Assembly (NCBI GenBank): GCA_004335835.1
Contig: RWJK01001200.1
Location: forward strand, 9,507 to 73,506
Direction of reading: 5' to 3'
DNA: 64,000 nucleotides
From: Scenedesmus sp. ARA3
Taxonomy: Eukaryota; Chlorophyta; Chlorophyceae; Sphaeropleales; Scenedesmaceae
Shown here piece after piece: positions 59 through 63,560 of this stretch (positions are counted from its first letter, which is position 1; the number at the start of each line of letters is the position of its first letter). The position numbers and the translations under genes were made by a program. The notes beneath the pieces were generated by a model that was given only the letters and a program-made list of their open reading frames with translations, searched no databases and was not told where the DNA came from.

Positions 59-60
59 AG

Positions 61-1369
61 GTGGGTGTCTGTGGTGAAGGACATGCGGGGAATCTTTGCC
101 AACCTGGAGGCCCAAGGCTACCCGCGCGAAAGGCAGGAGGTGCGGCTGCGCTGCAAGTGTATGCAGCAGCCCATGGCGCACCATGCAAGCGCAAATCTAT
201 CACTGGGACATCCAGCTGTACAAGGCGCTGTCGGTCACCCATTGTCAGCTGCACATACGCTCCTGATATGGACAGTGTCGTACACCTGGATATTTGTGGA
301 TTTAGCATCTGAAAATCGTCATCTTTGCAGGTGTGGCGCGCGCACTGGGACTTCCAGCTGTATAAGGCGCTGGAGGTGCAGTTCAGGGCGGGGCTGGAGA
401 GCATACACAAGAGCCTGCCAGAGGTGCGGCGGCTACTGCCAGCCGATAGCTTTGCACACTATGTTGCTCTGCAGGCAGCTGGCACCTTAGGCTAGTGTGG
501 TTTGTTGCCAACTGGCTGGCCAGGCACCATGCGCCCTTGATTTTGTTTGCCCCACATAGGACCTGATTCAAGGCATTTTGATCAGCATGCTACCACACCA
601 GCCCAAACACCCACATATGCCTTCAGTGGGGAGCTGGAGCCTATACATGAAGGTGATTATTATTATTATTATTATAATTAGAGAGGCTAGTAACATGTGG
701 GTCCTGGCACCATCTTAGATGGTATGAGCCACAACAGGTTGAACACATGATCTGAGACCAGAGAAGGAGAGTGAGCACCGTATAATGCTGTTGCTGCATT
801 CGTTCGCAGGTGGAGGTGTCCCTTGTATACAAGAACAAGCGGCTGCAGTTTGACCCTCCTTTGGAGACACTGCGCCTGCAGCACTACAGCCGCCACTTGA
901 ATGGCTTCCTGGGGCTGCCGCTGCGCATGAAGGGCGTGAGCAATTTGAGTGAAAGGCAAGGCTTCTTTGCACCCATTGCTGATGCAGACCCAACGGCCAT
1001 TGCAAGGGTGAGTGCTTGCACTGACGGTTATTAATGGTGATTGGCCTGCATGCATGCGTCAACGCATGTCACTGGCTTGCATGTTGTCAAACTCTATCTA
1101 TGGCCTGCACACCACAAGTAAGTACATCCACTGCAATATGAAAGAACCGTTGCCCGGGTCTGCACATACGCAGCTCTGCTGCTCCATGCTCTGATTCTCA
1201 TTGCTCGCACACCCACTGACTCCACCTCACGCGTCTGCAGGTCTACGAGTCCTGCGAAGCACTGTTTGCTGCTCTGGCTGACGAAGCCAAGAAGTACAGC
1301 GACTGGCTGGTGCTGGGTGACGTGGCAGGGGAGCTTGAAGAGCACGTGGAGGCTGTGCTGTGTGGGGAC

Positions 1370-1411
<42 letters not shown>

Positions 1412-2612
1412 GCTGGCGGTGATGTGGGGGACTGGGAGCTCAACCTGCGAATGCTGAAGACAGCTGCACATGATCTGAACAAGCTGCCAAATGAGGTGAG
1501 CAACTGCAGATTGACTGCAGTTTGTGGTGTTGGCTTGCTGGTTGTGAGCACTTTGCAGCGACTGGCTGGTGCTGGGTGACGTGGCAGGGGAGCTTGAGGA
1601 GCACGTGGAGGCTGCGCTGTGCGGCGATGACAGCAGCAGCAGCAGCACCAGCTGTGCAGGCGGTGAAGTCGGTGATTGGGAGCTGAATCTGTGGATGTTC
1701 AAGACAGCTGCACATGATCTGAACAAGCTGCCAAACGAGGTGAGTGGCTGCAGATTGACTGCAGTTTGTGGTGTTGGCTTGCTGGTTGTGAGCAATTAGC
1801 AGCGACTGGCTGGTGCTGGGTGACGTGGCAGGGGAGCTTGAGGAGCATGTGGAGGCTGCGCTGTGTGGAGACAACAGCAGCAGCAGCAGCAGTGCTGGCG
1901 GTGATGTTGGCGACTGGGAGCTGAATTTGCGGATGCTGAAGACAGCTGCACATGATTTGAACAAGCTGCCGAACGAGGTGAGTGACTGCAGGGTAGCGGG
2001 TGATCTTTGCAACGTGCCTGCTTGTTGGATCAACATCATATGTTATATGCTCAGTGGGCTACTGCCGCCAGCATTTTGATCCTGCCTGCCTTCTGCGCAG
2101 ACAACGTGTGTTGTGATGTTTGCAAGCTTGCTGCATCTGCTTTTTTACTGGCGGTGCTGTGCAGCCAAGCGCAAGCTCAAGCCTCTTGAAGCATGTGTGC
2201 GACAGCAGACATGCGCAGTGCTTGCTGATCAGTGCTGCTGCTACTCTTTGCAATACTCAGGTGCGGCTGGACTGCTACCGCGTGAGCCTGAGCCCATTCA
2301 AGGCATATGTAGAAGAGATGATCAAGCGGCTAAGAGAAGCCCTGGGAGCCAGTCTGCGCAAGAAGGTGCGGGGGTGCTACTCAACTGCATTTTCGAAACT
2401 TTACATGTGCACATGCGGATGCCATGAATTACGCTAGTTTCTGGCAGCAGCTCCGATCACATGTACTGCAGCGCACTAGGAATGCCTGCTGTGCGCTTCT
2501 TACTGCTCTGCCATCCGCCACGTGTTGCTTCTGCACCCCGCTGCTAGCATTCACGTCCACTAGCTGGCTTTCCACTCAAGCCAGCATCACTAACACATTG
2601 ATGTCATGCACT

Positions 2613-2654
<42 letters not shown>

Positions 2655-5600
2655 GATGCTGCTCCTGCTATTGCACTGCCGCCGTTCCTGCAGGCGTTTG
2701 CTGAGCGCCAGGCAATCGAGGACTTCCTGTCAGCGGGCGCTGCGCTGCTGGCGCTGCAGGCCAGCAGTGTGGAGGAGATCGGGCGCGCAGGGCAGGAGGC
2801 TCGGGCGCTGGTGGCACGGCTTGGGGAGGTGCCTCAGGTGCGGTTAACAAAGGAAACAGATATCGTGCAGCAGATGGCTTGTGTACCATGTGCAGTTGCA
2901 CAGTGGTAAGAAGGTTTGATTCGTATTTCATGTACGGCCCGCCTTGTAACTACTGGTTGTTCACGCCACATGTGTTTGCAACGCAGCTGTGTGTGAAAGT
3001 TAGTCTGATTGTTTTATGTGTTTTGTCTGGCATTCCAAAGCTGCCAGCTGCTACGCAAAGAAAGTATGCAGTTTTTGCTGACCATGCAGCTGCTGTTGCT
3101 CTTGGGCTGTTTGTTTGCAGCTGCGCAAGCGCGTGGAGGAGAAGAACCGCCTGTTGCGTCAGATGGCAGCAGCAACGCCTGCTGGTGCTGCCTCCAGCTC
3201 AGCGTTGACCGTCGTTGACCTAGCGGGCCTCTCTGAGCGCTGGGACGGCTTTGTAGGGCAGCTACAGGCGTATGACAGCCACTTGGAGGGGCAGCGGGCG
3301 GGGCTGCAGCAGCAGCTTGGGAAGAAGCTCGAAGACTTTGGCGGCACTGTAGCTGGCTTTGCGTCAAGGTGGGTGCAAGTACTTGATGCGAGCTAGGTTG
3401 CTGACTTTCATACCACTGCGTGGTATGTGTCAATCATCAAGTGACGTGTATGCCTTGATGGCTGCAACGCTGTGCATCATGTGCTTGTGATGTTGTTGTT
3501 GCTGATGCAGGTGGCAGTCCATCAAGCCGCGCAGTGTTCCCTCAGGCAACCCTGCTGTGGTGATTGCTCAGTTGGAGTATACGCACCGAATGTGAACATG
3601 TGCTTTCTGCTGCTGCTGCTGCAGGTGGCAGTCCATCAAGCCGCGTGGCGGGCCATCCGGCAATCCCGCTGTGGTGATGGCTCAGCTGGAAGATGCTGCA
3701 CGGCAGCTGCAGGACGTGCAGGAGGAGGCAGAACAGCTGTGCAAGGTGCGTAACCCTCGCTGTGCATTAGTTGGCCCGGCCAGAAAAAGGCGGGAGAACT
3801 CATTAATGCTGTACATGTTATATATTTGTGCGTGGACCGCTGCCGAGCTGGTGTACACTTCTATAGATCTAGCACCCTTCTCCAATATCTCGACCATCTC
3901 AGCTGTCCCTGCAGGAGTGTGAGGCGCGGGGGCTGTCCCCGCCAGCCTTCCCCCAGCTTGTTGTGGTCGCGGCTGACCTAACGCAGACTCAGTAACCCCT
4001 ATTTACCTGCCGAACAACCTTGTTCATTTCTGCCTGCAGGAGTGTGAGGCACTGGGTGTAGACCTTCCGGCTTCCCCCAGCTGGAGGAGGTGGCTGCTGA
4101 CTTGAGTGCCACTTTGAAACTGCTGCCCACCACTCTTACATCAAATCTGCTTGCACAAGTGTGAGGCACTAGTAGTGTAGCACTAGTAGTGTAGCCCTTC
4201 CAGCCTTCGCCCAGCTGGAGGAGGTGGCTGCCAACCTATACCAGACCCACTTTGAGCACCCTTGCAAACTACTGCCGGCATTTTTTCCACTGTCCATGCA
4301 CGCTTATGCAATTGCTTCCGGCATTTTCACTGTCAATGCAGGAGTGTGAGGCGTTGGGGCTGTCCCTGCCCGCTTTCCCCCAGCTGGAGGAGGTGGCGGC
4401 TGACCTGGCGGCTACCCAGGCCAGCTGGGGCGGCTACCGGGACTTCCTGGCAGAGCGGGACGCACTGGCGCACAAGGACTGGCTCAGCATGAGGGACCAG
4501 GTGCGGCCTGCTTTGCCTTTTATGGCTTTTTGCTGCTTACTGTGCATTGCAGTCCATAACCTCGACCTCCTGACACTGTACGGCAGGCGCAGTCCACATT
4601 GAATTTCATTGGAGCTCGGCGTAGCGCAGCGTGTTGCGGTGCAATGCGTGCGAAGGAGTGATAAGTGGATGCTCGTTACGACACCACCTCATTGCTGTAC
4701 TTGCATCATGTTGCTCGGGCTTCTGCAGTGTTCATGACAGCCCAAGATACGCGAGGATTGTGCAGCTGAGCGCCCTGCTGCTGTGCTGACACTCCATTCT
4801 CTCAGGTGTGGAAGATCGAGGACTTCCTCACCAAGTGGGAGAGCAGCTGCAGCGGCGCCTCAGCAGCCGACCCTGGCAAGGCAGCTATTGCTCTGGTGCT
4901 GCTGCAGGAGATTGACACCTACAGGTGCGGCCAACTGCTGCTACTGTTGGGCGTATTTCACGTTGGCATAGCAGCGGGGTGGTAGGGCCTGGTAAGGCAG
5001 GTATTGCGCAGGTTCTGCTGCAGGTGATCTGTGATCAACGCGTACAGGTGCGGCAACTGCTGCTGCTGCTGCTGCTGTTCAGCCTAGCCTGTCGGATCAC
5101 CAAACTGACTAAGCAGCCCGCTGGCTGGCAAACCGGCATACCACCACTTACTGCCATGTTTCGCGCAACATCTCCACCTGGCAGCCGTAAAACCCTAACT
5201 TACATCAATGCATTGTACGCCTGCTCTGTGAAATGTGCGCCTTTATGTGCAGGTGCTGCCTTCCTCACCTGAAGAGCTGCATGCGTGGCATCGGCTGGGA
5301 GGACAGCCGCTGGCTGCCTTGCGCGACACACTCACCATGCCCGCTCATCTACCTCGCCTATCAACTGTACATTGCATCTTGCAAAATAACAAAATGGCAC
5401 ACTAACACAGCTGTTACATGGATTATGGCTTGGTATGCCGCATGTGCTGCACAGACGCTGCCTGCCGCACCTCAAGAGCTGCATGCGCGGCATCGGCTGG
5501 GAGGACAACCACTGGCTGCAGCTCTTCTCCCTGCTGGGCTTCAAGCAGGGCAGCTTGGCCAAAGAAACAGTGACACTCGCACACTTTTTGGACAAGGCCG

Positions 5601-6040
5601 ATGCAATCATTGCGAATGTGGAAAAGATCAAGGCTCTGGATGCCATGGTGGGTTGGGTTTTGCAGTGTTTCTACTCAGGTAATGGAGTGATGACATTCAT
5701 TTGGAAAAGATCAAGGCTCTGGATGCCATGGTGGGTTGGGTTTTGCAGTGTTTCTACTCAGGTAATGGAGCGATGACATTCATGATGCAATGAGTCTTCA
5801 TATAGTGCTGTATTCATCCTGCAGCTACTGGTGAAAATACTGCCCTAATGCATGCAGCATTCAACAGAATGGTCGCAGCTTGCCTGGTTGCCCCTATGTG
5901 GCTGCAGCCGCTGTGCTCACTGCTACTCTAGTCAGCGCGAGATGCAAGCTTGCAACAACACACCACCTGCAACTCTTGGTGCTTGCCGCATCTGATGCTA
6001 GGTGTTGCCGCTGCCCTTGCTGCTACTGCCGCTGGCCCTG

Positions 6041-6096
<56 letters not shown>

Positions 6097-9000
6097 AGGC
6101 TCAAGGCGAGGCCCTCATCCGCAAGGCACTGTCCGAGCTGAAGCTGTGGGGCCTGCAGCGCAGCTTCACCTTCGTCCCCAGCAAGGACAGCAGCAGCAGC
6201 AGCAGCAGCAACACAGCGCCTGCTGCTGCTGGTCAGGCCGGCGGCTCTCGTGCTGTGCAGCTGATCAAGGAGTGGTCCGAGGTGCTGAGTGAGCTGGGCA
6301 ACCACCAAAGCCTGGTGGCGAGCCTGAAGATGTCAGCCTACCACCACTTGTTTAAGGTGCGTGGTTCGGCTGCTGCTGCTGCTGCTTTGCAGGATGTGGC
6401 TGCATCGTTGGTGGCCGGCCTGGCCAACATCTTTCCTGGTCAAACATGCTGCGCATGCCTCTGCTGCTGGTGCTGCTGCTGCTGCCGTCAGGATGAGGTG
6501 GCGTCCTGGAAAAGGCACCTAGCAATGCTAGTCGAAGGCCTGGGCCTGCTGCAGGGCATCCACCATCAACCTGCCGTTCCTGATGGGCTGCTGCTGCTGC
6601 TACTGTTGAAATTGATGTGCAGGATGAGTTGGCGTCCTGGGAAAGCCGCCTGGCCACACTTGTAGAAGGCCTGGGCCTGCTGCAGGGCATCCAGCGGCGC
6701 TGGCTGTACCTGGAGCCCATGAATACTTTGGTCAGACCCTGGTCAAACTGCTGTGTGGTGCTGCTGCTTTGCAGGATGAAGTGGCATCCTGGGGAAGCCG
6801 CCTGGCCACACTTGTAGAAGGCCTGGGCTTGCTGCAGGGCATCCAGCGGCGCTGGCTGTACCTGGAGCCCATGAATACTTTGGTCAGACCCTGGTCAAAC
6901 TGCTGTGTGGTGCTGCTGCTTTGCAGGATGAAGTGGCATCCTGGGGAAGCCGCCTGGCCACACTTGTAGAAGGCCTGGGCTTGCTGCAGGGCATCCAGCG
7001 GCGCTGGCTGTACCTGGAGCCCATCAATGACTTGGTCCATTGGACCTTGGTCAAACCCCGGTCAAATTAACTGCTGCCTCTGCTGCTGCTCTTGCAGGAT
7101 GAGGTGGCGTCCTGCAGGAGCCACCTGCCCTCACTGATGAGGGGCTTGTCAGATGTTTGGTGGAAGTCTGGTCAAACTGCTGCATGTGCTGCTGCTGCTT
7201 TGCAGGATGAGGTGGCATCGTGGGAAAGCCGCCTGGCCACACTTGTGGAGGGCTTGGGCCTGCTGCAGGGCATCCAGCGGCGCTGGCTGTACCTGGAGCC
7301 CATTTTTGGCAGAGGGGCGCTGCCTGCTGTGGCTGGACGCTTCAGGCATGTTGATGGGGAGTTCAGGGCTATCATGGGCCAGCTGGCGGTGAGTGCTTTT
7401 TTTAAGCCTGCTGTAAAGGAGGCTGGCTTTGCAGGGTGGCATGCGCTGGATACTCATTTGGATCTCTGGTCCTGTGCTGCATTGTATGGTGTGTATCAAA
7501 AGACAAAACTGCCTGATCACTTGGGTCGCTGCGCAGGCTGCAGCCCGCTGGCGAGGTGCTGGGCTCTGCTGAGCTGCCTGGCGTATGCTGGCTATGCCTG
7601 CTTACAATATGTTCTGGTACTGCATGATGCGTTGACTGCGGCCGACAACAGCTGGTGGCGATTGCTTTGTGTTTCAAGCTGTCGGTAAGGGGTTGGCCTC
7701 TGCCGAGCTGCCTGTCTTGTATTGGCAATCTGGGTTGACATCATGCCTTGCGATGCTCAACGTGTTGGCTGACATGGCTGCTTCCTTGCCTTGCTGCGCA
7801 GGCTGCCGGCAAGGTGGTGGGCTTTGCTGAGCTGCCCGGCGTGCTGGCTATGTCTGCTGACCCTCATTGGTTGCTTGTGCACTAGCGAGACTATCTGCTG
7901 ACCTGCTCTGCTGCGCAGGCTGCCGGCAAGGTGGTGGGCTTCGCTGATCTGCCCGGCGTGCTGGCTATCTCTGCTGACACTCATTGGTTGCATGCGGACT
8001 AGCGTGATCACCTGCTGCCTTGCTCTGCTGTGCAGGCTGCCGGCAAGGTGGTGGGCTTTGCTGAGCTGCCCGGCGTGCTGGCTGTTTCTGCTGAAAGTCA
8101 TTGGTTGCTTGTGCACTAGCGTGATTACCTGCTGCCTTGCTCTGCTGTGCAGGCTGCCGACAAGGTGGTGGGCTTCGCTGATCTGCCTGGCGTGCTGGCG
8201 AGGCTGTCGGCCATGGCTGCTCAGCTGGACGCCTGCCAGCGGGCACTGGCTGAGTTCCTGGAGGAAAAGAGGGCGGCGTTTCCCAGGTACGTGCCAATAT
8301 CCGGCTGTTGTTTGACAACAACACCGTACAACGGATGAATTGTCGCATATATTCATACAGCATAGGTACCAGCATCTTCTGCGATTTGGCGCTTTGTGTA
8401 ATAAGCTGGTGAGGTGCGGTGCAGAAACTCAATGCAAACCCCTATTTTCCTCAACCTGCTGCAACACAGGTTTTAATTCCTGGGTGACGATGACCTGCTG
8501 GAGGTGCTGGGGCAGGTCTCCAGCCTGACGATCATCCAGGCAAACCTCCTGACCTCTAGTTATATAACATACAAATGACACATTTATGACATTGTATGTT
8601 TGGTCTATAATCGCAGGTTTTACTTCCTGGGCGACGATGACTTGTTGGAGGTGCTGGGGCAGGCCTCCAGCCTTGGTGTCATCCAGGCAAACCTCCTGAC
8701 CTCTAGTTATATAACATACAAATGACACATTTATAACATTGTCTGTTTGGTTTATAATCACAGGTTTTACTTCCTGGGCGACGACGACTTGCTGGAGGTG
8801 CTGGGGCAGGCCTCCAGCCTTGGTGTCATCCAGGCGCACCTCAAGAAGCTCTTTGCAGGCATCCACAGGGTGAGGCAGCTGTCTAGTGCATGTGTTATGT
8901 CTGGGCCTTTGTATTATGCTTGCTGCTGCTGTTGTTGTTGTTGTTGTCGTTGTCATCAATTTGTTGTGATGAGGCTCACCTCAAGAAGCTCTTTGCAGGC

Positions 9001-17629: not shown

Positions 17630-17660
<31 letters not shown>

Positions 17661-17752
17661 AGGTTGGCCCCGCGGGCTGTGGCAAGTCCACGCTGCTGAA
17701 CTACTGCTTTGCGCGGCTGCCAGGCAGGGTCGCATGAAGTCACTGAGCAATG

Positions 17753-17795
<43 letters not shown>

Positions 17796-26184: not shown

Positions 26185-26219
<35 letters not shown>

Positions 26220-27088: not shown

Positions 27089-27181
<93 letters not shown>

Positions 27182-33100: not shown

Positions 33101-33201
33101 CGATGTGTGAAAGCCAACTAGATGCTCTGCTGAACCATACGACTTTGAGGTTATGCCAGTAAGCTACTGCCGCTCAGGGGTCTCACTGCTGCTGCTGTCA
33201 C

Positions 33202-33235
<34 letters not shown>

Positions 33236-35118: not shown

Positions 35119-35151
<33 letters not shown>

Positions 35152-35178
35152 CGGCCGCAGCGCTTCAGGCCGCCGGCC

Positions 35179-35210
<32 letters not shown>

Positions 35211-37882: not shown

Positions 37883-37887
37883 TGTAA
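37883..37887 (+). terminator. TGTAA poly(A) signal of the dynein gene
   Basis: TGTAA occurs 127 bp after the dynein stop codon. TGTAA is the usual cleavage and polyadenylation signal in volvocine and related green algae. It is the first one after the stop. Confidence 0.55.
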
Positions 37888-39696: not shown

Positions 39697-39699
39697 GGG

Positions 39700-48799: not shown

Positions 48800-49389
48800 C
48801 TGCATGTCCAGCCAGTTCATCGTTATCACCTTGATCCATACAGTTGCTTTATGCATACTGCCGTCAGGTAGCTTACAAGCGTCCTGTTTCATCTCCAGCT
48901 ATAGCAGCACACTGTGCCCAGGCCATCTGGCCCACTAGCTTGGTGCTAGCGCTATCTTGCGTGATGAAACGTATCAACACATTAAATCCGGTTCATTCTT
49001 CTTGTCACAGACTAAAAGGAGAACTTGCTGCTGCCAGCTGAAGTTTGTACTGCCAGCCCAAGCACCAGAACAGCTGATCCACTGGCAAAACCGACAAGCT
49101 AAGCACAAAGTAATCCAAGCAGCACTCGCTGAACTGCACAAAGACAGCACGTAACAACATGTGTCTGCTGGTATTCTCATTTTCCGCGTCAGCAACCGAA
49201 CGGTGTTTACACGTGCCTTAGCAAATACTCATGCGATTCTATCTTGCTGCACAATGTAAGTAGGCATCAGTCTGTTTGCAGTGACACCGCATATCTTTTT
49301 CACCCGCCTTTGCATCACCAAAGTGGCAGCCTGAGCACGTTGCCCCTCAACTGCATTTGATTGCGCTCCCACAAGGAGTCGCAGCAACC
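48800..49389. promoter_or_regulatory. Shared upstream region of divergent Nup88 and acyl-CoA oxidase genes
   Basis: The two genes are transcribed away from each other with only about 640 bp between in-frame ATGs (48750 and 49390), so their promoters probably overlap. I see no clear TATA box. The first Nup88 exon may lie inside this interval. Confidence 0.5.
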
Positions 49390-52300: not shown

Positions 52301-55300
52301 TACTCCGCACAGCTACTGTGCACCACTGCATCCTGAGCTTCACGTTGAAGTTACCGGTCAAAACATATGCTGCTGTGCCTGTTTCTCGCCGCCAGGAGTT
52401 CTTGAAGTGCTTGCCCACTCTCCCATCCACCGAGCGGTGGCCGGGGTAGCAAAGCTGATTTCAATTACGGTGTGCTTGCCTGAAGATATATCGTGTTTTT
52501 TATGTGTGCACTGCAGGAGTTTATCCTGCACTCGCCCACACTGACCAGCACCAAGTGGTGGCCAGGCGGCATGGGCAAGACAGCCACACACGCAGTGGTC
52601 ATGGCGCGGCTCATTCTGGGTGGCAAGGACCATGGGCCGCACGCCTTCATCGTGCAGGTGGGGCTTACCAGTGCTTGCTGCCAGCTGGGTTTTTGTTCTT
52701 TGTAAGCCTTTGCACAATGCCTGCAGCCGTATTTGTATGTTGTCCATGCTCAGGTGACTGCCGCGCAGCCTGGCGGACCACTTGCCATGCCCGGCATCAC
52801 TGTCAGGGACATACACAGACCTGGAGATGCTGTGATTGCCCTTTTTGATCTGAACCTCTGCTCCGCTTTGTGCTTTGTTGTGCCCGCAGCTGCGCAGCCT
52901 GGCGGACCACATGCCCATGCCCGGCATCACTGTGGGCGACATCGGGCCCAAGTTTGGCTTCGGGGGCGTGGACAACGGCTTTATGCGCATGGACCACGTG
53001 CGCATCCGTGAGTAGCGCGGTCCAGGGTTTTGGTATGACGTTCTGGGTACACGCTGTCGCTTTGCGGGGCATGGACAACTGGTTCATGCCCTTGGACTGC
53101 GTGCGCATATGAAGTCATGGGTTGATTGCAATGTCACACCCTTTTGCAAGTTTATTTCAAACTCACACATCATCTTGTTGTCTGTGCCTGGGGTTTCTAA
53201 ACCCTGCAGCGCGCGGCAACATGATGAGCCGCTTCAGCAAGGTCACCCCTGAGGGCACCTACGTGCCGCCCCCGCCAGCCAACGCCAAGGCCAGCTACGC
53301 CACCATGCTGTTTGTGCGTGCGGACATCGTGCGCAACAGCGGCGGCGTGCTCAGCAAGGCAGCCACCATCGCAGTGCGCTACGCGGCGGTGCGCCGCCAG
53401 ACTGCGCCAGGGCCAGGTGCGCACGACAGCGGATGTGTCTTGGTGGTGCATCCACATTGTATGCAGTCCGGTTTTTTGGCATGCTGGGTCTTGCCACTGT
53501 GGGCTGCTCATTTCATTAGCTTGTAAATGTGCACTACACAAAACAGAAAGGGCAATTGGCCTACACAATACGCATTTCAGTTGATGTTGTTTGCTGCCGC
53601 TGCTGCTGCTGCTGCTGCTGCAGGCCAGCGGGAGCTGCAGGTGCTGGACTACCAGAACGTGGCCAACACGCTGATAGGGCTGGTGGGCTCTGCATATGCC
53701 TGCTGGTTCATGGGCCTGGAGATGCAGGCGCGCTATCAGCGGTGAGGCGCTGTTGATATTGCAGATTGACACTGGTAACAGTGGAATGTCAGAAAACAGC
53801 ATCAACTCGAACAGCAAAAGCATGTGATGTTCATAGATGATCAACCTACCTGAGCTGCACACGCGTGAAATTGGTGCACGTGTTCAGGGCCACCTGTACT
53901 ACAGGCACTCACGCGCTACTTCTGTATGCTGTCTTGATTGTTCACACCACCCTACAGGTTTGAGGCTGACAGGGACGAGGGTGTGTTCAGCGACCTCCCC
54001 GAGCTGCATGCACTGTCCTCCGGCCTGAAAGCCGCGTGCACCAGCACCACGCAATTGGTGTGGTGCTTGGCGGCTGTCGCGCTAGTCTTGACCATATGTA
54101 TCGTGTCCTGCTGTTGTGCCGCAGTTTTGAGGCCGATCGCGACAAGGGAGTCTTCTCAGATCTGCCAGAGCTGCACGCGCTGTCATCCGGCCTGAAAGCC
54201 ACCTGCACGGGCACCACAGCGGACGGCATTGAGGCCGCGCGGCGCTGCTGCGGCGGGCACGGCTACAGCGCGCTGAGCGGGCTGCCGCGGCTGTTTGCGA
54301 GCTACGTGCAGAACGTGACCTGGGAGGGCGACAACAACGTGCTGTACCTGCAGGTGCGTGGAGTGTTGTGCACCCTGTGTGGAGTGCGTGCAGTATGCTT
54401 GCAGTGCATGTATGGTTTCTGACAGAAATATAATATAGACATCAGATAAGGTCCAGCAATTTTACATCAATGTCAAACATCAAACGCCATCCAACTTGGC
54501 TGCTTGCTTGTGTACGTGTCTGCCGCAGACGGCGCGCTACCTGCTCAAGGCGCTGGCGGCCGGCCAGTCTGGCAAGCCCGTGGGCGGCAGCGCGGCCTAC
54601 CTGGGGCAGCTGCAGCAGGAGCTGCGCAGCAGCTGCAGCGCACGCGGCGCAGACTGCTGGGGAAACCCAGGTACGGTTGCCCTGCCGGTGTTACAATTCC
54701 CCAAACTAACACCAGGGCTCGCAGCGGGCGCAGCAGGGATTCGCAGCTGCGAGCAGCGCTTGACAGATTTATGTAGTTTGGGGTCAGATGTACTGTGGAG
54801 TATGCAGCTGGCATTTGGCGTGCCTGTACAGCTCTGCTGCCTGTGTTTGCCTCTCTAGTTTGTTGACTGAAGACTTGTTGTTTTTGTTGTGCTGCAGCAC
54901 TGGCGCTGGCGGCACTGCGGCATCGTGCGGCGCGCCTGGCAGTGTCAGGTGCAGCCACGCTGCAGGCAGCCAGCAGCGGTGCTCGTGCCCCGCTGAAGTT
55001 TGAGGGGCCTGCCTGGAACAGCAGCACGGTGTCGCAGATCGCGATGGCCAAGGCACATACAGAGATGGTGCTGCTGCAGGTGCGGTGATGCAATGATTGG
55101 CGTTGCGGGGGTGTGGGGTGCTGGGCTGTACGCTGCATGTTCATGTGCAGCTGTGTGCTGCAGGGGGTCTAGGCGATGACAGCAGCCTGGCTGTTGCTGC
55201 GTGCATACAGCCGCATGTCATACTGTCGCTGCTGCTGTTGTTGCTCTGGAGGTCCGTCCGACGTTGTTAAGCACTGAGTCTGCAGGTGATATCCGCCGTA

Positions 55301-56926
55301 CGCGTCGACACGCTGCGCCATCCTTGGTTGCTAGGCTTCAAATCAAGTTCATCAGATCTTGCTGCTTGATGACCTTGCTGCTGCGTGCAGACGTTCATGG
55401 ACACGCTGCAGCAGGCGCGCGATGCTGGCAACTTCAGCAGCAGTGGCGTAGCCACATGCATTTTGATGGCAGTGTTAGTTGCTTCTCACCATACTGCTGC
55501 TCCTGACCATGCTGCTGCACTGCAGACGTTCATGGACACGCTGCAGCAGGCGCGTGATGCTGGCAGCCTGAGCCCGCCCGTGCTGGCGGTGCTGGGGCGG
55601 CTGTGCTGCCTGTTTGGGCTGGGGCTGGTGGAGGCCGGCTCGGGTGATCTGCTGGAGGCCAGGTGGATGACAGGTAGGGTTTGTAGGGGTGAGGGGTTTG
55701 TGGATGCATTTGTTAGGCTTTAGGTCATGCCGGTGGAGGTTTGATTGTGCCTGTTTGGGCTGGGGCTGGTGGAGCTGGCTCGGGGGGCCTGCTGGAGGCC
55801 GGGTGGATGATAGGTTGGGCTTGTAGGGTTGGGAATATGTTTGTTGGGTTTGGGGCTGGCAGTGCTTGCAGCTGAGACAGCAACATAGCATGCATGGCGG
55901 CCTCTGCTGGCATGCTGCTGCTTGTGCTGTTGCGGGTGTGTGTGCCCCTCCACAGATAAGCAGGCAGCCGTCGAGCTTACACAGCACTGGGCGCTGCTAA
56001 CATCTGCTCTGCGCCTCTGTTTACGATTTCGCTGTTGACAACAGGCGAGCAGGCTGCTGCCGCGCGCACACAGCACCGGGCGCTGCTGGCTGCTCTGCGC
56101 CCTGAGGCAGTTGGGCTGGTTGACGCGTTCGGCTGGGAGGACTATGCGCTGAATTCTGCGCTTGGCAGGCAGGACGGCGACGTGTACAAAGCCCTGCTGG
56201 ACATGGCCACGGTGCGTGGCTTGCTGATGCTATGAATGTTTTGGCTGTTGGTGTGCTGGGTATCCGGCCATTGGTCTGCTGTTTATTTGGCTGTTGGTGT
56301 GCGCATTTGTGTTTGGCTGTTGGCTGCGACTTGAGGCTGTAGGGCTGGTTGACGCGTTCGGCTGGAAGGAGTGTGCGCTGAATTCCGCGCTGGGCAGGCA
56401 GGACGGAGACGTGTACAAGGCGCTGCTGGACATGGCCACGGTGGGTGCATATTTGCGTGTGTTTGACCAGGCGCTGAACAGCGCAGTTTGGGGTTTGTGT
56501 GCATGTGCGGTCGGGGCGTGGGGAGGCCGAATGTTTGTTTCTGTGCTGTTTGGGTAGCGTGTGTGAGGCTGTGGCCTGGTGGACGCCTTTTGCTGGGAGG
56601 ACTACGCGCTAAATTCTGCGCTGGGCAGGCAGGGATGGCGATGTCAACAAGGCGCTGCTGGACATGGCCAAGTGCGTGTCTGTTGCTTGGGGGCAAGTGT
56701 TAGTATTTACAAGGCAGTGGGCTGCTGGTTGCTTGCATCTGGGAATGAAGCTTGCCTTGGGTCTGCATCGAGGCTAGTGGCCAGCAAACATGCAAACCAG
56801 CTGCCGTCTCATCACTTGCTGCTGCTGTCGCTGCAGGTGTCCCCGCTGAACCGCACGCAGCAGGGCCCCGCCTGGGAGAGTGTGCTGAAGCCGGTGCTGC
56901 ACCGCAAGCCGCTGCCAAAGCTGTGA
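49390..56926 (+). CDS. ACX: Peroxisomal acyl-CoA oxidase
   Basis: Catalyses the first step of peroxisomal beta-oxidation, oxidising acyl-CoA to trans-2-enoyl-CoA with FAD and passing electrons to O2 to make H2O2. Fifteen exons: 49390-49565, 50420-50533, 51433-51526, 51783-51860, 52103-52192, 52517-52657, 52890-53007, 53210-53416, 53624-53741, 54125-54353, 54529-54670, 54898-55079, 55526-55673, 56045-56211 and 56837-56926. All phases agree, giving 697 residues. Family signatures are [62 protein letters not shown] and, with the presumed catalytic Glu, [16 protein letters not shown]. The C terminus is PKL, a variant of the plant peroxisomal PTS1 signal. No N-terminal PTS2 is evident. Introns contain many copies of exon edges and one assembly gap. 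Confidence 0.93.
50205..50533 (+). repeat. Three copies of the start of acyl-CoA oxidase exon 50420-50533
   Basis: CTGCAG|GGCGCAGTTTGC at 50304 and 50420, plus a partial copy near 50190-50245. The intron parts share AATGCCTGACA and TTATACGC. Confidence 0.9.
50522..50851 (+). repeat. 22-bp minisatellite spanning an acyl-CoA oxidase 5' splice site
   Basis: Units GTTGGGCATCTG|GTGAGG plus four bases start at 50522, 50544, 50566, 50588, 50610 and 50632. After the gap they continue at 50786, 50808 and 50830. The first unit contains the real donor at 50533. A further stray copy lies at 51118-51145. Confidence 0.97.
50650..50783. other. Assembly gap, 134 N, inside the minisatellite
   Basis: The spacing of repeat units across the gap (50632 to 50786) is 154 bp, exactly seven 22-bp units, so the gap length appears to be real repeat sequence that was masked. 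Confidence 0.9.
53958..54057 (+). repeat. Upstream partial copy of acyl-CoA oxidase exon 54125-54353
   Basis: CTACAG|GTTTGAGGCTGACAGG to ACCAGCACCAC matches the start of the intact exon but stops before the catalytic DGIE segment. Confidence 0.92.
55391..55440 (+). repeat. Upstream copy of the start of exon 55526-55673
   Basis: GCAG|ACGTTCATGGACACGCTG and the next ~30 bp are repeated 135 bp before the intact exon. A copy of the end of the same exon lies at 55742-55815. Confidence 0.9.
56328..56678 (+). repeat. Two extra copies of the end of exon 56045-56211
   Basis: GAGGCTGTAGGGCTGGTTGA to GACATGGCCACG|GTG at 56331-56441, and a worn copy at 56565-56672 with an extra base in GGCAGGGATGGC. 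Both lie downstream of the intact exon. Confidence 0.92.
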
Positions 56927-57347
56927 GCGGCAGCAAGCAACGACTTCAGCAGCTGCAGGATGCTGGCAGGTAGCAGCTGCTGCTGCAGCACACGGCAGGA
57001 ACAGCGGCGTCACGCACCGCAAGCCGCAGCAGTGCGCTGCCAAAGCTGCAGCAGCTTCAATGCTCACGCAGCAGCAGCAGCAGCAGCAGCAGAAGCAGAA
57101 GCAAGCGAGGCTGGTGTGCAGTCCTTCTTTGATAGGATGCTGCCTTGCTGGTTTGGCAGCCGTTGCTAGTTATACGGCCCTACGGCAATGTGAAATGGCG
57201 AGTTTGCTCCTTGAGGTTGGGCAATGGCATGGGCATTTCAAGGCCAGATAGCAGCCATGGCAAATAGCAACCATTCTTTGACGATGCCATGCTGTTACGC
57301 CAGTGTTGTGCCTATTCAAAGTGACAGTTACAGTTTAGGTTCACTTG

Positions 57348-57352
57348 TGTAA
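57348..57352 (+). terminator. TGTAA poly(A) signal of the acyl-CoA oxidase gene
   Basis: First TGTAA after the stop codon at 56926, about 420 bp downstream, giving a long 3' UTR that includes CAG-rich sequence at 57060-57105. Confidence 0.5.
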
Positions 57353-58193
57353 CGTATGATATTTATTGATGTGTCACGAAAGTTTGTGTTGTTCCCTGCT
57401 GTGAATCAGCAGCAGCATGTATAATGACAGTTGCCCAAGGAAACTTTCACACACGGTACTTTCACATAGGGCTTACACGTGTTCACGTGGCAAGGGGGCT
57501 TACCGCCCGGCCTGCTGGTAAGGGTGGGGGCTTACATATGTAAGCCCCCCTAACCGTGTAAGCCCTAGCCACAATCGGAGACCTTACATATGTAAGGGTT
57601 ATCCCTTACATATGTAAGGGGGTTGCCGGGGTAGTGATACGGTACTGTCACATACGGTATGTTGCTGCGCTGTAGGTCAAGCAAGCGCTTGCATGCAGTT
57701 GTTGGAACCACAGCTGCCTACGACCATACAACACTGCGAACAGAAGCTGTGCTGAACACGTTTGTGCAGGGCCGTGCACGCCTGATGTGCATCAGGCTGA
57801 TCAGGCTGATCACTTGTCACAATGAATGACTTGCAACGTCCTGCAGCAGAGATAGAATGTGCTGGGGCATGTTCTCATGTGGTAATTCGAATCAAATCAT
57901 ATATCCGACACTTACCCGTCCTGCTGACGGCGACAGCAGTTCTGCAAGCCGTTCTGCTGCGTGCTGTGGTTCAAGCACTGAGGTGTGGCACAAGGGTGAC
58001 CGTCCCCACAGCTTCCAAGTAATTTTGGTCAGGCTCAGCATTTAGCAGTTGCATGCTTAAGCAGTTTAAAGATTTCCAAGTGTACTTCGTCAATTAATCC
58101 CGATATCATAATCCTGCAGGCGTACGTCTCGGCTGCGCGCTCCTATCTCGACACATTACTGGACGGCAACTGGTTCACCCACGTATCTGCGCA
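57353..58193. other. Intergenic region between acyl-CoA oxidase and YqeY genes
   Basis: Holds the palindrome cluster at 57526-57620 and otherwise no recognisable gene. The part nearest 58194 should include the promoter of the next gene. A short doublet (GCATCAGGCTGATCAGGCTG, 57788-57807) is the only other local repeat seen. Confidence 0.45.
57526..57620. repeat. Three perfect palindromes sharing core CTTACATATGTAAG
   Basis: Perfect inverted repeats of 24 bp (57526-57549), 16 bp (57582-57597) and 18 bp (57603-57620) share the core CTTACATATGTAAG but differ in flanking G/C arms. Related half sites GGGCTTAC and GTGTAAGCCC occur nearby (57465-57575). They lie about 580-670 bp upstream of the YqeY start. 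Confidence 0.9.
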
Positions 58194-59058
58194 ATGGCGG
58201 CCATTTTCAGAACCTTTCGCAACGCCCGGGCTGCAATTGTAGGTGCATGCAGGCTGCAGCAGTGCCAGCAACAGTGCTGCTGCTTCTCAGCAGCAGCACC
58301 AGCAGCATGCAGCAGCAACTGAATGACACGGCTCCTGCTGCTGTGCGTCTGCAGGGTCGCCAGGCTTCTTGCTCAGCTCCCATTGTTAGCAGACGCGGTA
58401 TGCTCAGCCCCAGCACTCATGTAGTGTGTGAGCTGATACATGCTAGACTAGCATTGCTAGTGACAGTGCTGGTGGACAGCAATTGCACTGCAGCCTGCAT
58501 GCTGGCTGCTGATGTAGCTACACCAGTCGCAGCTTGCAACAGCCACCACTGCCATCAAATCATGCATGTGAGTAGTAACTTCTGCTCATGTCGTGGGGGC
58601 CTGACAGGGCTCATATGCATGCGCAAATGCCGGTGTGTTGACCTACGTGACCTGGATTCGGCTGCTGTTGGTGCAGGTGGCCTGCAGCGCCAGCTACATG
58701 TGTCGGTCTGCTGTGCTGCTGCTGGCAGCGACCTAACAGTGCGCATCAAAGATGACATGAAGGTGAGGCCTCTGAACTTCCCAGGTTCACAATGTAGGGC
58801 AGAGTGGGACAGCAAAGGTTACTATCAATCACGACAGTGTGCACTAAACACAAGGATGGAGGTGGGGTGCCTGACCTTGCGTGCAGCAGCAGCTGCCGGA
58901 CTACCATGTCAGTTAATTCCGCAGACTGTCTGCAAACACACAATAGCTTTGCTGCGCCCACGTCAGTGCTGCGCATGCACTTTGATGCTTTTTTGCAGTT
59001 GGTCACTGCCAACACTTGCTGCTGCTGCTCCTGCTGCTGCCGCCGCCACTGTCGCCAC

Positions 59059-59100
<42 letters not shown>

Positions 59101-59792
59101 AGGCTGCAATGAAGGCGAAGGATGCGCCCCGCCTGGATGCCATCCGCTTCCTGTCAGCAGCCATCAAGCAGCGGGAGATCGAGCTGCGAGAGAAGGGACA
59201 GGAGGTACGAGTTCTGTCGTACTGTTACGTTACAGTGTTATTTTGTTTATTGAGTTAATTTATGTGATGCCAGCATGTGAGCAGCTGTCAGCAGCGCCAG
59301 ATTGAGCTGCGCAAGTCGGGCAAGGAAGTGTGTTATGTCATACGGTTACGTCACACTGTTATGTTGCAGTATTTTGCAGGAATGATGTGTTAAAATGCCA
59401 GCATGCTGGCAGCCATCAACAAGCTGAGTGGGCAATCGCTGCCACTGCTGCTGGTTGCTGCTGCTGTTGCTGCAGGTCAGTGATGCCGAGGTGCTGTCGG
59501 TCATCCAGAAGATGGCCAAGCAGCGGCGAGACTCCATCGACCAGTACAAAGCTGGGGGCAGGGACGACCTTGCAGGTGCGCTGGCATTGCTGATGCATGG
59601 ATCTGGTGGGCTGCTACTGCATTCAGTTGGTTGCTAGTGACCCATCATGTGCAAGGGATCTGCTGCAGGCAGAAGAGCGGTTGAGCTGAGGGTGGCTGGC
59701 TCGCAAAAGGGGCAGCCTGATGTACGTGTCTGTGTACTGATTGTTTGTTTACTGGCTATCTGCATAGCCAGCTGAGCTCCAACCTTTGAGCA

Positions 59793-59845
<53 letters not shown>

Positions 59846-60068
59846 AGGCAAGGAGGAGGTGGAGCTGCAGCTGCTGCTGTCCTACCTGCCAGCTCAGCTG
59901 AGCAGGGAGGAGCTGGCTGGCATTGTGGCAGCAGCAGTGGCAGAGGCAGGGGCGAGCAGCGTGAAGCAGATGGGGCAGGTGATGAAGCTGGTGACTGCAA
60001 AGACAGCGGGCGCTGCTGATGGCAAGATGGTCAGCGAGCTGGTCAAAGCAGCGCTGACGCAAAAGTAA
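58194..60068 (+). CDS. YqeY/AIM41-like (GatB-YqeY domain) protein, probably organellar
   Basis: The family is thought to act with tRNA-dependent amidation or as a tRNA-binding helper; its exact role is not settled. Exons 59103-59204, 59476-59575 and 59848-60068 (stop TAA) encode the core. It reads AAMKAKDAPRLDAIRFLSAA, then VLSVIQKMAKQRRDSIDQY and LLLSYLPAQLSREEL, ending LVTAKTAGAADGKMVSELVK, the typical YqeY order. Exon 58688-58762 supplies DLTVRIKDDMK. A first exon at 58194-58238 (MAAIFRTFRNARAAI) joins in phase to RQLHVSV, giving 180 residues with an Arg-rich, acid-poor presequence suited to mitochondrial or plastid import. The 5' exon is inferred. An alternative is the open frame from 58247 running straight into exon 58688-58762. 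Exon 59103-59204 has a decayed copy at 59286-59325. Confidence 0.85.
59792..59846 (+). repeat. CTG tract at the acceptor of YqeY exon 59848
   Basis: About 18 CTG units leading directly into CAG|GCAAGG. A similar tract (59060-59101) precedes exon 59103. Confidence 0.95.
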
Positions 60069-60179
60069 AAACTACCACGCAGTATTGCGTCCTCAGGGTT
60101 TGACGGAGACGTGAGCAAGCAGCGCTAACTGACAAGTGAGGAGATGCAGAGGCTATTCACAGTGCGATTGCACTTTGCA

Positions 60180-60199
60180 TGTAAGCAGTCTACATGTAA
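60180..60199 (+). terminator. Paired TGTAA poly(A) signals of the YqeY gene
   Basis: TGTAA at 60180-60184 and again at 60195-60199, in the tandem repeat CATGTAAGCA, about 115-130 bp after the stop codon. Confidence 0.55.
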
Positions 60200-60758
60200 G
60201 CAATCTATGCGCCTAGGGGGAGCTTGCGCATGCGGCCAGTGTCTTTGATGCATGCAGTGGCAGATCGCCCCGTCAAGTCGGGGCATGGTTACAGGACTCA
60301 CGTCAGCAGGTGACCTTTTGGTGATTGGCCAGAGTAAAACACTGCACCTGACAGGCTAAGCCTGCAAGCGACCTGCTGTATGCACGCAGCACATGCAGCA
60401 GTACATGTACTGCTGCCGTATTTACTGTCTAAATGGTAAAGCCCCGCTCCTGAGAGTTGTTATTACACTGCACGTATTCTCTAGCAATCGATCCACTCCC
60501 AAACCAAGCAGTGCTCCGGATAGCGTGCAACTGTCCAGGCCGTGTACCCTGCTGGTGCCAGGCCCTGAGGCAGCTTTGGGGTGAGCGGAGCATGGGCTGC
60601 ATGCGGATACTTATCTAGTTTTAGCTGCTCACTTTGTCAATTGTTGGAAGGTCAACAGGGACTAGCAGCCGATCTTTCACTGCGAGTGACACCAGTAAGA
60701 TCTCCGCAATTGCGTCGTGCAGCGAAGCTCCGCCCAGCACCAACCGAATCCAAACATC
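60200..60758 (+). promoter_or_regulatory. Probable promoter and 5' UTR of the TPR gene
   Basis: Non-coding sequence between the poly(A) signals of the YqeY gene and the first ATG of the TPR gene. No distinct motif is recognised. Confidence 0.35.
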
Positions 60759-61941
60759 ATGCTGTGCCCAGTAGCGCGCAGCGCAGCAGCTCAAGGAGCT
60801 CGCATGGCGCGCACCTGCCAGCCAGCAGCTGCTGTGCACCCAACAGCAGCAAGGCGCCACAGCACCATTGCTCGCAGTGGCGAGGGCGTTCGTGACTTGA
60901 TCAGTCGCGACAGGAAGTAAGTGGTATGCTTGTTGCCATGCATGCCTGAGGCTACCCACAGGCGGGGTAATGTGATGTGCAACCACTACTACATGTGTCA
61001 GCTGCTGCTGCAGCAGCTCTTTCGGTTTGCAACATCCAGCTATGCAGCTCTCTGTTTGTGGGCTTGTTGAAGATGGTTGCTAGCCTTCATTAAGAAATCT
61101 CATAGACATGCACTGGCAGCATCTGCTGCCAACAGGTGCATCACACCATGCAGGACTTGCCAACATGCGGTATCAACGGCGCCGGCAGGTTCACTGGTGC
61201 ATGCTAGCGTGAACATTTTAGTTGCTTATGCCCTTGGCTTCACACATCATCACAAGATACACATGTTGTACTGCTTTTCTCCTTCCAGGGAGGTTGAGCT
61301 GACTGATGCCTTTGAGGAGAAGCCAGCAGCACCAGCTGAACCAGCAGCAGCAGATGCTTCATCATCAGCCAGCAGCAGCACCACCACCACAGCAGATGCT
61401 CCCAGCAGCAGCACCCGCAGCAGCAGCAGCAGCGCCAGGCGCCGCACAGGCGGCTTCAAGACTCGCAAGCAGCGGCAGGCAGACATGGCACAGGCAGCAG
61501 ATGCAGAGGACGCCCCAAGCAGCAGCAGCAGTGATGCACCAGAGCGGCAGTTCAAGCGCTGCAAACAGGTGGGTACATCAGAAGCTTTGTGGCTATCTCA
61601 GCCTTCTTCTTGTTGCTTGGATTTGTTGTGATTCAGCAACTATCAACATGCCGAGCTTTTCATGCTGTTGTGCCACAAGCCCTGCAGCCAAGGTGGCGTC
61701 ATGGAAAAGTATGTCCAGTGGCTCTTTCCTGCAAGCAGTACACTTGCACAGACCCTGCCCCTTTCCTGCAACCAGCACACCTACACAGCCTCTCTCTGCT
61801 GCAGTCATTTTTGTAGCAGCAGGCTACTCTGCCGCTGCTGCTGCTCCTGCTTGACCTCTCCTCAGCTGCGCAGCATGATGTGCTGTTCCCGCACAGGCAA
61901 AACAACTCTTCGCTCCAACTGGCTGCTGCTGCTGTTGCTGT

Positions 61942-61983
<42 letters not shown>

Positions 61984-63036
61984 AGGCCATTGATGCTGGG
62001 CTGGAGGCTTTTGCGGCAAAGCAGTACAGCCAGGCCATTGACCTGTTCAACCTGGCCCTGGAGCTGCCTGGCAACGGTGAGCCTCTAAGTACCAGCTAAG
62101 GCTTTGTTGTTGTTGACTAGACTTGGACATTGATGTGGCTGTCACTGTAGACCTTTGCTGTTTACAGCAGGGTAGTCAGACCTGTTCAACCTGGCCCTGG
62201 AGCTGCCGGGCAACGGTGAGGGGATGAGTGTCTGTTGGTGCTAGCTAGAACAGGTCGTCACTGCTGTTGTGACGAAGCTGCCTGTCTGTCACAGGAACTT
62301 CCCCAACCCGATCTTGGAGCTGCCAGGCAATGGCGACTGCATGATTGCAGCATTGCAGCAGCTGCGGTTGTGGTGTTGCTGGCAAGAACATGCCGCTGAT
62401 GCAATTATGCCACAGCCTTCACTTAGCTGCGTTGACTGGCCCGCTTGCGTCCTGCAGCTCTGTGCAGGTGCGTACCAGCTGTCTGGCTGTCCTCGTGAGT
62501 ACGTGCGTGCCCCACTTTCGGCCTCTTACATGGCTCCACCTTGCTCACTGCTCTGCCTTTCTGCTTCTGCTGTGTGTGTCTGTGCAGGTGCATACCGGCT
62601 GTCTGGCAGTCCCCGCGAGTACGCCTGCCCCAGCGATGCAGAGGAGCATGCGGCGCTGTACAACATGGCTTGCTGTTACGCGCAGCTGGGGCAAAAGGCG
62701 GCGGCGCTGACCTGCATTGAGTCGATCCTGGAGACAGGTATGATACGCTGGCTGTTGGTGCTTCTTATAGGTTGCTGTGGCAGCGGACTTGTTCTGTTGT
62801 GATATAGGCTGGAAGGGCAGCATGTACAGCTATGCGCAGCTGGGGCAGAAAGCAGCGGCGCTGACCTGCATTGAGTCCATCCTGGAGACAGGTGCGTTAT
62901 CACAGAAGTAACAACATATGGCAGACTAGGTTTGATGTGGCAGCGGGTCTCTTGTGCAGCCTTTGCTGGCTCACCTGGAGTGCATCCTGCAGACAGGCCT
63001 GCCATGTTAAAACACATATAACTTACGAAGCGCAAC

Positions 63037-63074
<38 letters not shown>

Positions 63075-63410
63075 AGGCTTCAGCGACATTGCCACCATCA
63101 CCTCAGATCCCGACCTGAGGCCGGTGCAGGGGCCTGAGCTGCAGGCAGTCATCAACAAGTGAGCGGGCTTGAGAGTGGCAGTGTAGAGCTTCAACACCTG
63201 CGTTAATGGCAGTGAAAAAAAAGTGCCTGCCTAGCGCTCAGCACCAGCGTTAGAAGAATTGCATGCAGCTGTCGCAGCAATATTATGCGCCCATTGGATG
63301 CAGCAAAAGCGTGCTGCTGCTTTTGCTGCTGCACACACAAGGTGCTGTTTACTTCCAAGCAACCACAGGCACCTTTTGCTGACAACTGCTGTTGACTCAC
63401 AGCTGTATTG

Positions 63411-63453
<43 letters not shown>

Positions 63454-63560
63454 GCAGGCACACTGGCATCGGGGGTGTGTTCAGCAAGCTGCTGCGCAAG
63501 GACAAGGAGGAGGTGCTGGTCAGCGACAGCAACAAGAACAAGCCCTGGATCATGTGGTGA
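60759..63560 (+). CDS. TPR-domain protein with probable chloroplast transit peptide
   Basis: Six exons (60759-60916, 61289-61568, 61986-62076, 62588-62737, 63077-63158 and 63458-63560) join in perfect phase to 287 residues. The N terminus MLCPVARSAAAQGARMARTC is rich in Ala, Arg and Ser with no acidic residues, as in algal plastid transit peptides. Residues about 60-146 are low-complexity Ser/Ala/Thr from AGC runs and then RRRTGGFKTRKQRQ. A TPR-like helix pair follows (GLEAFAAKQYSQAIDLFNLA) and a second one (ALYNMACCYAQLGQKAAAL) ending LRPVQGPELQAVINK. The C terminus VFSKLLRKDKEEV is basic and ends WIMW. This resembles a family of plant and algal plastid TPR proteins of unclear role. No enzyme motif is present. 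Introns carry repeated copies of exon edges. Confidence 0.82.
62160..62890 (+). repeat. Copies of TPR-gene exon edges
   Basis: Copies of the end of exon 61986-62076 lie at 62180-62221 and 62310-62335. A copy of the start of exon 62588-62737 lies at 62466-62512. A copy of its end lies at 62830-62893, with a fragment at 62975-63000. Confidence 0.9.

Follow-up and report, generated by a model that had tools for sequence, protein, structure and literature searches.

Splice-junction copies in a dynein gene and its surroundings

The window, i.e. the whole 64-kb stretch of Scenedesmus sp. ARA3 DNA analysed here (C861:9507-73506 of an 87.3-Mb assembly in 1,567 contigs), carries at 59..37747 on the plus strand a cytoplasmic dynein-2 heavy chain gene (DYNC2H1/DHC1b type), the 5′ part of which lies upstream of the window. 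Many introns of this main dynein gene hold tandem copies of a neighbouring exon edge together with its splice site. A homology-guided spliced alignment gave a model with 67 exons (median 152 nt) and 66 introns (100 nt or longer, median 356.5 nt), once four of the 70 originally predicted introns, 51-78 nt long and located in CAG-type repeats, had been removed. The joined exons are a multiple of three in length and stop-free, in agreement with a previous sequence-only reading of this DNA, which had proposed a clean open frame of 67 exons. One predicted intron, at position 15750, is of the GC-AG type with a GCGAGT donor. The best relatives of the gene are found in Scenedesmus sp. NREL 46B-D3 and in volvocine algae. 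A second dynein gene, on contig C867, was also modelled; its Tetradesmus obliquus relative is 85% identical across 48% of the query. PMC5966456 reports 57% GC for T. obliquus and introns averaging 462 bp; the corresponding averages are 270 bp for Chlamydomonas reinhardtii and 230-302 bp for the three other Sphaeropleales tabulated.

Self-BLAST of the window, masked with Tandem Repeats Finder (TRF), returned 111 near pairs (same strand, less than 4 kb apart); near inverted pairs were absent from the whole window. At E<=1e-3, 42 arrays were found in the main dynein gene: 30 cover a splice junction (only one of the 42 covers both junction types), 11 touch an exon without reaching a junction and one is intron-only. 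The final set, from unmasked realignment with a cut-off of at least 43 bits, comprises 40 arrays, 37 of them over an annotated junction, two touching an exon and one intron-only. They occupy 34 of the 66 introns, very close to the 35 or so counted beforehand by eye. We call decoy a copy of an exon edge with its splice site that lies within the intron: 58 decoy-junction pairs were counted, distributed over 38 of 132 junctions and 32 of 66 introns, with up to six decoys per junction. In the C867 gene, all 21 arrays, on 19 of 75 introns, lie over a junction, so that the two modelled genes together have 58 junction-covering arrays out of 61 and a single intron-only one. The presence of the copies in the sequence, their density and their position astride splice junctions are confirmed, as the sequence-only reading had it. 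A third dynein gene, on contig C1283, has 10 arrays in 8.8 kb by a count independent of any gene model; one of them holds six exon-tail copies, each with a strong donor site. The arrays of the window are as follows.

201..371 (+): junction-free array touching an exon
1297..1991 (+): array (periods 244-259) in which the tail of the exon that ends at 1495 is repeated in tandem along with its 5′ splice site
3494..3690 (+): decoy of the 3′ splice site at 3625
3903..4407 (+): decoys of the 3′ splice site at 4342 (at 3903-3979 and 4035-4104; a decayed third near 4195)
4872..5071 (+): decoy of the 5′ splice site at 4925
5255..5519 (+): exon-head copy beginning 2 nt inside exon 5455; exon-touching class
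5616..5783 (+): clean 83-bp tandem duplication across the 5′ splice site at 5648, 98% identity, intron included
6374..7303 (+): array with six decoys of the 3′ splice site at 7206
7520..8199 (+): array with decoys of the 3′ splice site at 8153
8465..9156 (+): array surrounding exon 8764-8869, with decoys for both of its splice sites
9853..10028 (+): decoy of the 5′ splice site at 9913
10191..10333 (+): decoy of the 3′ splice site at 10297
10442..10805 (+): decoy of the 5′ splice site at 10580
11943..12212 (+): 80-bp tandem array across the 5′ splice site at 11958
13407..13828 (+): decoy of the 3′ splice site at 13668
14097..14287 (+): decoy of the 5′ splice site at 14153
14522..14717 (+): decoy of the 3′ splice site at 14647
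15027..15246 (+): decoy of the 3′ splice site at 15191
16250..16567 (+): two decoys of the 5′ splice site at 16310
16846..17129 (+): decoy of the 5′ splice site at 16926
17388..17869 (+): array with three decoys of the 3′ splice site at 17798
18405..18541 (+): the sole intron-only array of the main dynein gene
18942..19326 (+): two decoys of the 5′ splice site at 19013
19812..20581 (+): array with five decoys of the 3′ splice site at 20510, period about 130
20935..21191 (+): decoy of the 5′ splice site at 21037
21339..21589 (+): decoy of the 3′ splice site at 21546
21657..21837 (+): decoy of the 5′ splice site at 21698
22097..22324 (+): decoy of the 5′ splice site at 22157
22502..22904 (+): two decoys of the 3′ splice site at 22843
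23121..23417 (+): weak exon-head copy beginning 9 nt inside exon 23366; exon-touching, in the E<=1e-3 set only
23506..23967 (+): decoy of the 5′ splice site at 23564; the sole main-dynein pair with an N run (23745-23887) between the copies
24653..24957 (+): decoys of the 3′ splice site at 24898
25628..25834 (+): decoy of the 3′ splice site at 25798
26037..26312 (+): decoy of the 3′ splice site at 26223
26335..26560 (+): decoys of the 5′ splice site at 26378
26668..26873 (+): decoy of the 3′ splice site at 26811; exon part 95% identical, shared intron 11 nt only
27630..27788 (+): decoy of the 3′ splice site at 27777, acceptor altered to GG
28442..28816 (+): decoy of the 3′ splice site at 28723
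29189..29465 (+): decoy of the 5′ splice site at 29229
30577..30909 (+): decoy of the 5′ splice site at 30666
33725..34053 (+): decoy of the 5′ splice site at 33828
36516..37263 (+): three decoys of the 5′ splice site at 36650
42685..62893 (no strand assigned): 17 further local arrays, all with coding-like sequence; examples are 42685-43132, 47758-48102, 50174-50482, 51297-51474, 53955-54217, 55360-55831, 56087-56681, 62040-62220 and 62459-62893

The 17 arrays among the other genes of the window (38-64 kb) may include a coding repeat and a minisatellite. The former, at 44330-44484 on the minus strand, is an in-frame 21-bp repeat with LHDEVRQ units; the latter, at 50522-50850, has 22-bp units and encloses an assembly gap (50650-50783). 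Of the five genes on both strands that the sequence-only reading took to be affected, the main dynein gene is confirmed at the level of junctions; for the other genes of the window, the result is that all 17 arrays contain coding-like sequence.

Could this census simply result from random tandem duplication, the slower divergence of exons making their copies easier to detect? Events at a single junction are indeed expected to represent 36-65% of tolerated random events. But random placement with the observed periods makes 50% (main dynein) and 35% (C867) of tolerated events intron-only, and shorter units raise this to 64% and 53%. We also ran a simulation in which duplications arose in the C867 gene, in its array-poor part, with decay of both copies, constraint on the true exon and a detection-like score threshold: 25-30% of the detected events were still intron-only, against 1 of 61 arrays observed (P for one or fewer is 1e-8 at an expectation of 30%), and 0-18% of the simulated pairs shared 12 nt of intron or less, against 42 of 82 observed. 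Purely intronic duplications, whose equal frequency the sequence-only reading had named as the sign of detection bias, are therefore far rarer than the 25-64% expected. Besides being contradicted in the two genes, a plain bias also does not fit a model-free test in which arrays with no copy holding coding-like sequence were counted and compared with random shifts. Such arrays are 2 of 40 in the main dynein gene (8.2 under random shifts), 0 of 17 in the 38-64 kb part of the window (5.8), 2 of 12 in one array-rich part of C867 (5.7), 1 of 19 in the other, which overlaps the modelled gene (4.7), 0 of 7 in L031 (2.9) and 0 of 12 in L032 (4.3), with P<=0.012 in each case; L030 (0 of 3 vs 0.1) is uninformative, being 81% coding-like owing to CTG repeats. 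Overall, plain bias is a very improbable explanation.

The phenomenon is regional, not pervasive as the sequence-only reading had claimed. The window has 57 arrays in 64 kb and C867 has 33 per 50 kb, whereas the dynein loci on C1260, C1548 and C1136 have 1, 3 and 1 per 50 kb. Four 10-kb stretches taken from contig starts have 0, 3, 7 and 12 arrays, and among eight 3.2-kb dynein loci six have none (L002, L005, L007 and L008 among them), one has one and one (C867) has six. The switch can occur within one gene: the C867 gene is array-sparse before about 35 kb of the reverse-complemented 136001-186000 stretch and dense beyond. The array-poor 50-kb loci also bear introns: their coding segments average 188-221 nt and their gaps have medians of 196-213 nt, the respective values for the remaining loci being 164-200 nt and 206-299 nt. 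A contaminating second organism was rejected as an explanation of this patchiness, since tetranucleotide signatures correlate at 0.86-0.99 among the stretches compared, and so was CTG-repeat density, in which array-poor and array-rich stretches overlap. CTG/CAG runs are dense throughout the window (some 7-9 in every 10 kb, as against 72 in L030); they encode Ala, Ser, Gln or Leu stretches in exons and also sit at 3′ splice sites.

Structure and decay of the decoys

The two modelled genes hold 82 pairs of true copy and decoy. In 62 of 64 pairs of the main dynein gene, decoys of 3′ splice sites lie upstream and decoys of 5′ splice sites downstream. The copied exon part is typically 35-160 nt long and the offset is mostly 80-300 bp. 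Exons are copied partially: at junctions with a single decoy, the median exon part is 60 and 57.5 nt in the two genes. The spacer to the nearest decoy is at least 44 nt at 60 of 60 junctions (log10 P of -4.2 for 27 5′ sites and -5.9 for 33 3′ sites), as if the true splice site needed a local intron of its own. Exon identity is between 80 and 95% in 70 of the 82 pairs and reaches 97.5% in two only, so that the proposed continuing birth of copies is not borne out: recent copies are few, although identical repeats could be hidden by assembly collapse.

Changes accumulate mainly in the decoys. Where decoy and true copy differ at an amino acid, the outgroup residue is that of the true copy in 139 instances, that of the decoy in 14 and neither of them in 51 (80 of 82 pairs; two were dropped, having an exon part above 250 nt with exon mapped to exon). 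At main dynein junctions with at least two decoys, changes private to one decoy are spread nearly uniformly over the codon positions (48/35/56), unlike those private to the true copy (6/2/18). Stops number 11 in main dynein decoys and none in those of the C867 gene. The joined C867 exons are themselves out of frame (not a multiple of three, 52 stops), and codon frames were set per exon. Splicing at the decoy would disrupt the reading frame, by a shift or a stop, in 77 of 82 cases, a count that for C867 rests on the intron phases of the model. Coding constraint on the decoys was rejected on the codon-position pattern and the stops. By all these features the decoys look like silent debris, and the earlier view that the copies are not extra exons stands: they are partial exons, and they decay in both genes.

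A role as functional decoys or alternative exon edges that regulate splicing is accordingly very doubtful. It could draw on the two intron-end bases, which are those of the true site in 80 of 82 aligned pairs, but this figure is inflated by the counting of aligned junctions only, stops and amino-acid changes accumulate, and a mere 5 of the 82 decoys would yield an in-frame open product. A simple test for internal repeats, as traces of decoys, was negative in the sister-species proteins P0001, P0121 and P0122. A predicted dynein of Chlamydomonas sp. UWO 241 (P0139) has several internal near-repeats spaced by 15-45 amino acids, which may possibly be decoy exon edges read as coding in another alga.

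The asymmetry between true copy and decoy is relevant to the possibility of an assembly artefact, in which the alleles of a heterozygous sample would have been joined serially. PMC9516828 documents false exon duplications on one scaffold, local serial copies of exon-containing segments, with gaps between the copies as a mark of this false heterotype duplication; the regional clustering of our arrays and the gapped, scaffolded nature of the assembly would fit. Misjoined alleles, however, should differ symmetrically from the outgroup, because the error would not know which copy is used; here one copy decays, with 139 differences against 14. An N run separates the copies in 1 of 82 pairs, the other 81 being gap-free. 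Neither a second haplotype nor a leftover haplotig turned up when the assembly was searched with one protein and two 3-kb DNA stretches, only the best candidates being scored, and multi-copy arrays are present. With one gap in 82 pairs and no second haplotype found, an artefact is improbable, in line with the earlier argument against a simple assembly duplicate. A source elsewhere in the genome was rejected by the genome searches with the two 3-kb stretches.

Origin and persistence of the copies

The intron side of the copies divides the pairs into two classes. In 40 of 82 pairs more than 12 nt of intron are shared, with intron identity of 0.876 and 0.851 in the two genes; in the other 42, at most 12 nt are shared, while the exon part is 81-98% identical. 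Mean exon identity is as high in these short-intron pairs (0.877 and 0.905) as in the long-intron ones (0.881 and 0.853). The short-intron class, which was chosen for its short intron match, has an identity profile near 0.9 up to the exon edge that falls to background within about 10 nt of intron. At single-decoy junctions the median shared intron is 11 and 5 nt though the median spacer is 70 and 75.5 nt; homology extends over 80% or more of the spacer in 5 of 27 pairs of the one gene and in none of 20 of the other.

Such a profile, together with the single intron-only array in 61, is what would be expected if the exon edge and its splice signal alone, with 2-12 nt of intron, were copied into the adjacent intron, e.g. 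by transcription- or splicing-coupled repair, the long-intron arrays being secondary unequal exchanges between copies. More generally, exon edges with little beyond the splice signal could be copied into the neighbouring intron by mutation tied to splicing or to the exon-intron boundary itself, in bursts confined to certain regions, so that introns expand and acquire decoy splice sites. We regard both the junction-targeted copying and this broader process as rather unlikely. To our knowledge, no process copies exon edges with their splice signal into introns, and neither a sequence element nor an RNA trace of one was found. At least one clean tandem duplication (5616-5783) takes in the intron. 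Moreover, faint homology is left in the short-intron flanks: as a group they give a z of 2.14 ± 0.36 against shuffles, and in 19 of 40 the match beats every sampled window of the same intron. With flanks of unrelated junctions as the reference, z averages 1.03 for 20 pairs at 5′ sites and 0.80 for 22 pairs at 3′ sites, with p<0.05 in 8 of 42. These matches suggest that intron was copied there too. The near-absence of intron-only arrays stands, but a process that targets splice junctions is not supported as such: it competes with preferential survival of the exon half once an ordinary duplication has spanned a junction, and with a diverged homologue as the source of the copies.

With a diverged homologue, from the other haplotype or a hybrid partner, exons would align and introns would not; aberrant recombination where the lineages met would have placed the copies in series, and the misplaced one would decay. 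The missing intron homology and the absence of intron-only arrays, which would be unrecognisable, are then accounted for, as are the scarcity of copies above 97.5% identity (2 of 82), the regional blocks and the splice sites that are independent yet intact (gtaggt vs gtgagt at 98% exon identity). But divergence at four-fold sites is merely 0.22 and 0.24 in the two classes, a level at which introns should still align, the six decoys found at one junction are more than two haplotypes would supply, and the assembly searches described above did not find a second copy. We consider this origin unlikely. A synonymous excess between copies seemed to point to it but was left unused, four-fold divergence being alike in both classes and mutation bias a possible cause of the excess.

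The reading we favour, at a probability of about 45%, is that of small junction-spanning tandem duplications whose exon half stays recognisable. Small tandem duplications, with offsets mostly of 80-300 bp, would repeatedly copy junction-straddling segments in certain regions of the genome. Those inside exons would be purged because they break the protein. Those across a junction would be tolerated: the exon-contiguous copy retains a splice site of its own with some 44 nt of intron or more, and the original mRNA could still be made from it, and the other copy would become a silent decoy in an enlarged intron, then decay. The geometry, the near-absence of intron-only arrays, the decay of decoys, the minimum spacer and the regional clustering are observed; tandem duplication as the origin, and survival by splicing around the decoy, are what we infer. 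The clean duplication at 5616-5783, the intron identity in long-intron pairs and the faint homology of short-intron flanks speak for this origin. The intron-derived half and purely intronic duplications would erode, while the exon-derived half would persist, probably because the constrained exon re-templates the decoy by ectopic gene conversion or otherwise slows its loss. Conversion as the keeper of the exon half draws some support from the clustering of differences within exon copies (window-variance Fisher p of 7e-6 in 32 short-intron pairs and 5e-5 in 34 long-intron pairs) and from exon identity being unlinked to flank homology (Spearman -0.06).

Several results weigh against this account. 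In a first anchored test, on the main dynein gene, short-intron flanks were near random (means of 5.9 vs 5.3 and 6.55 vs 6.29), with two exceptions. The pairs at 37132 and 41045 in C867 and at 26811 in the window combine 95-96% exon identity with a lack of intron homology, and in the C867 pair at 46281, with 98% exon identity, flank homology is not significant (p 0.07); such pairs are hard for any model in which intron is copied too. Short-intron pairs give a weak result in the maximum-run test for tracts (p 0.063, vs 0.018 in long-intron pairs), and the fall in exon identity toward the junction that conversion tracts might give was not found. Finally, the mismatch between simulation and observation requires an additional exon-specific step, and none was seen directly.

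Known systems and significance

Internal gene duplications spanning exon-intron boundaries were reportedly described by Gao and Lynch in 2009. Ours are alike in being within-gene tandem copies with splice sites that could be spliced around; unlike them, they affect about half of one gene's introns, hardly any copies are intron-only and many lack the intron part. The small tandem duplications left by break repair, the subject of PMC8355091, are a possible source of short tandem units; we know of no splice-junction preference in them. Intron gain by tandem genomic duplication is the subject of PMC4974935. There, too, tandem duplications are tolerated as splicing can restore the original mRNA, as may be the case here. 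Models reportedly proposed by Rogers and Hellsten concern the same route. In our arrays, however, no new intron is formed: existing junctions are copied and the decoys, with their own splice site, lie within existing introns. The mark of intron gain, intron ends that copy the opposite flanking exons, is not seen, 3′ decoys being upstream and 5′ decoys downstream. Nor are the decoys tandem or mutually exclusive exons, which would be whole, with both splice sites and an open frame; they are partial and decaying.

Introners (PMC9860276) also alter intron content at many places, but here no repeat family was seen in the spacers and a 3-kb affected stretch of C867 matches itself alone (in a search that skips simple and very common words). 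The far repeat pairs of the window, two on the same strand and four on opposite strands, all come from one dispersed repeat of about 70-100 bp (681-782, 13054-13153, 17166-17235 and 30984-31056), whose copy at 30984 matches at least 40 or so other places in the genome. A local gene duplicate is perhaps present at 39269-41471, where two related blocks in open frames of the minus strand lie 1.73 kb from each other and share 72-75% identity. ARAGORN (bacterial code) gave no tRNA and Rfam no match in the window.

Among the papers listed by our literature searches, none, judged by its title and the beginning of its abstract, deals with junction copies at such density or with such exclusion of intron-only copies. 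We group the phenomenon with internal junction-spanning duplications, which are a known kind, as are intron gain by tandem duplication and false assembly duplications. For annotators it is a caution, as gene predictors and assembly checks could misread such loci. If the junction bias is mutational, introns would grow, and cryptic splice sites arise, by a route not known before. With a bias of retention, these genes would offer a natural experiment, with dozens of closely similar competing splice sites of which one per junction gives the protein, and splice-site choice, decoy tolerance and the minimum intron context (about 44 nt) would become directly testable.

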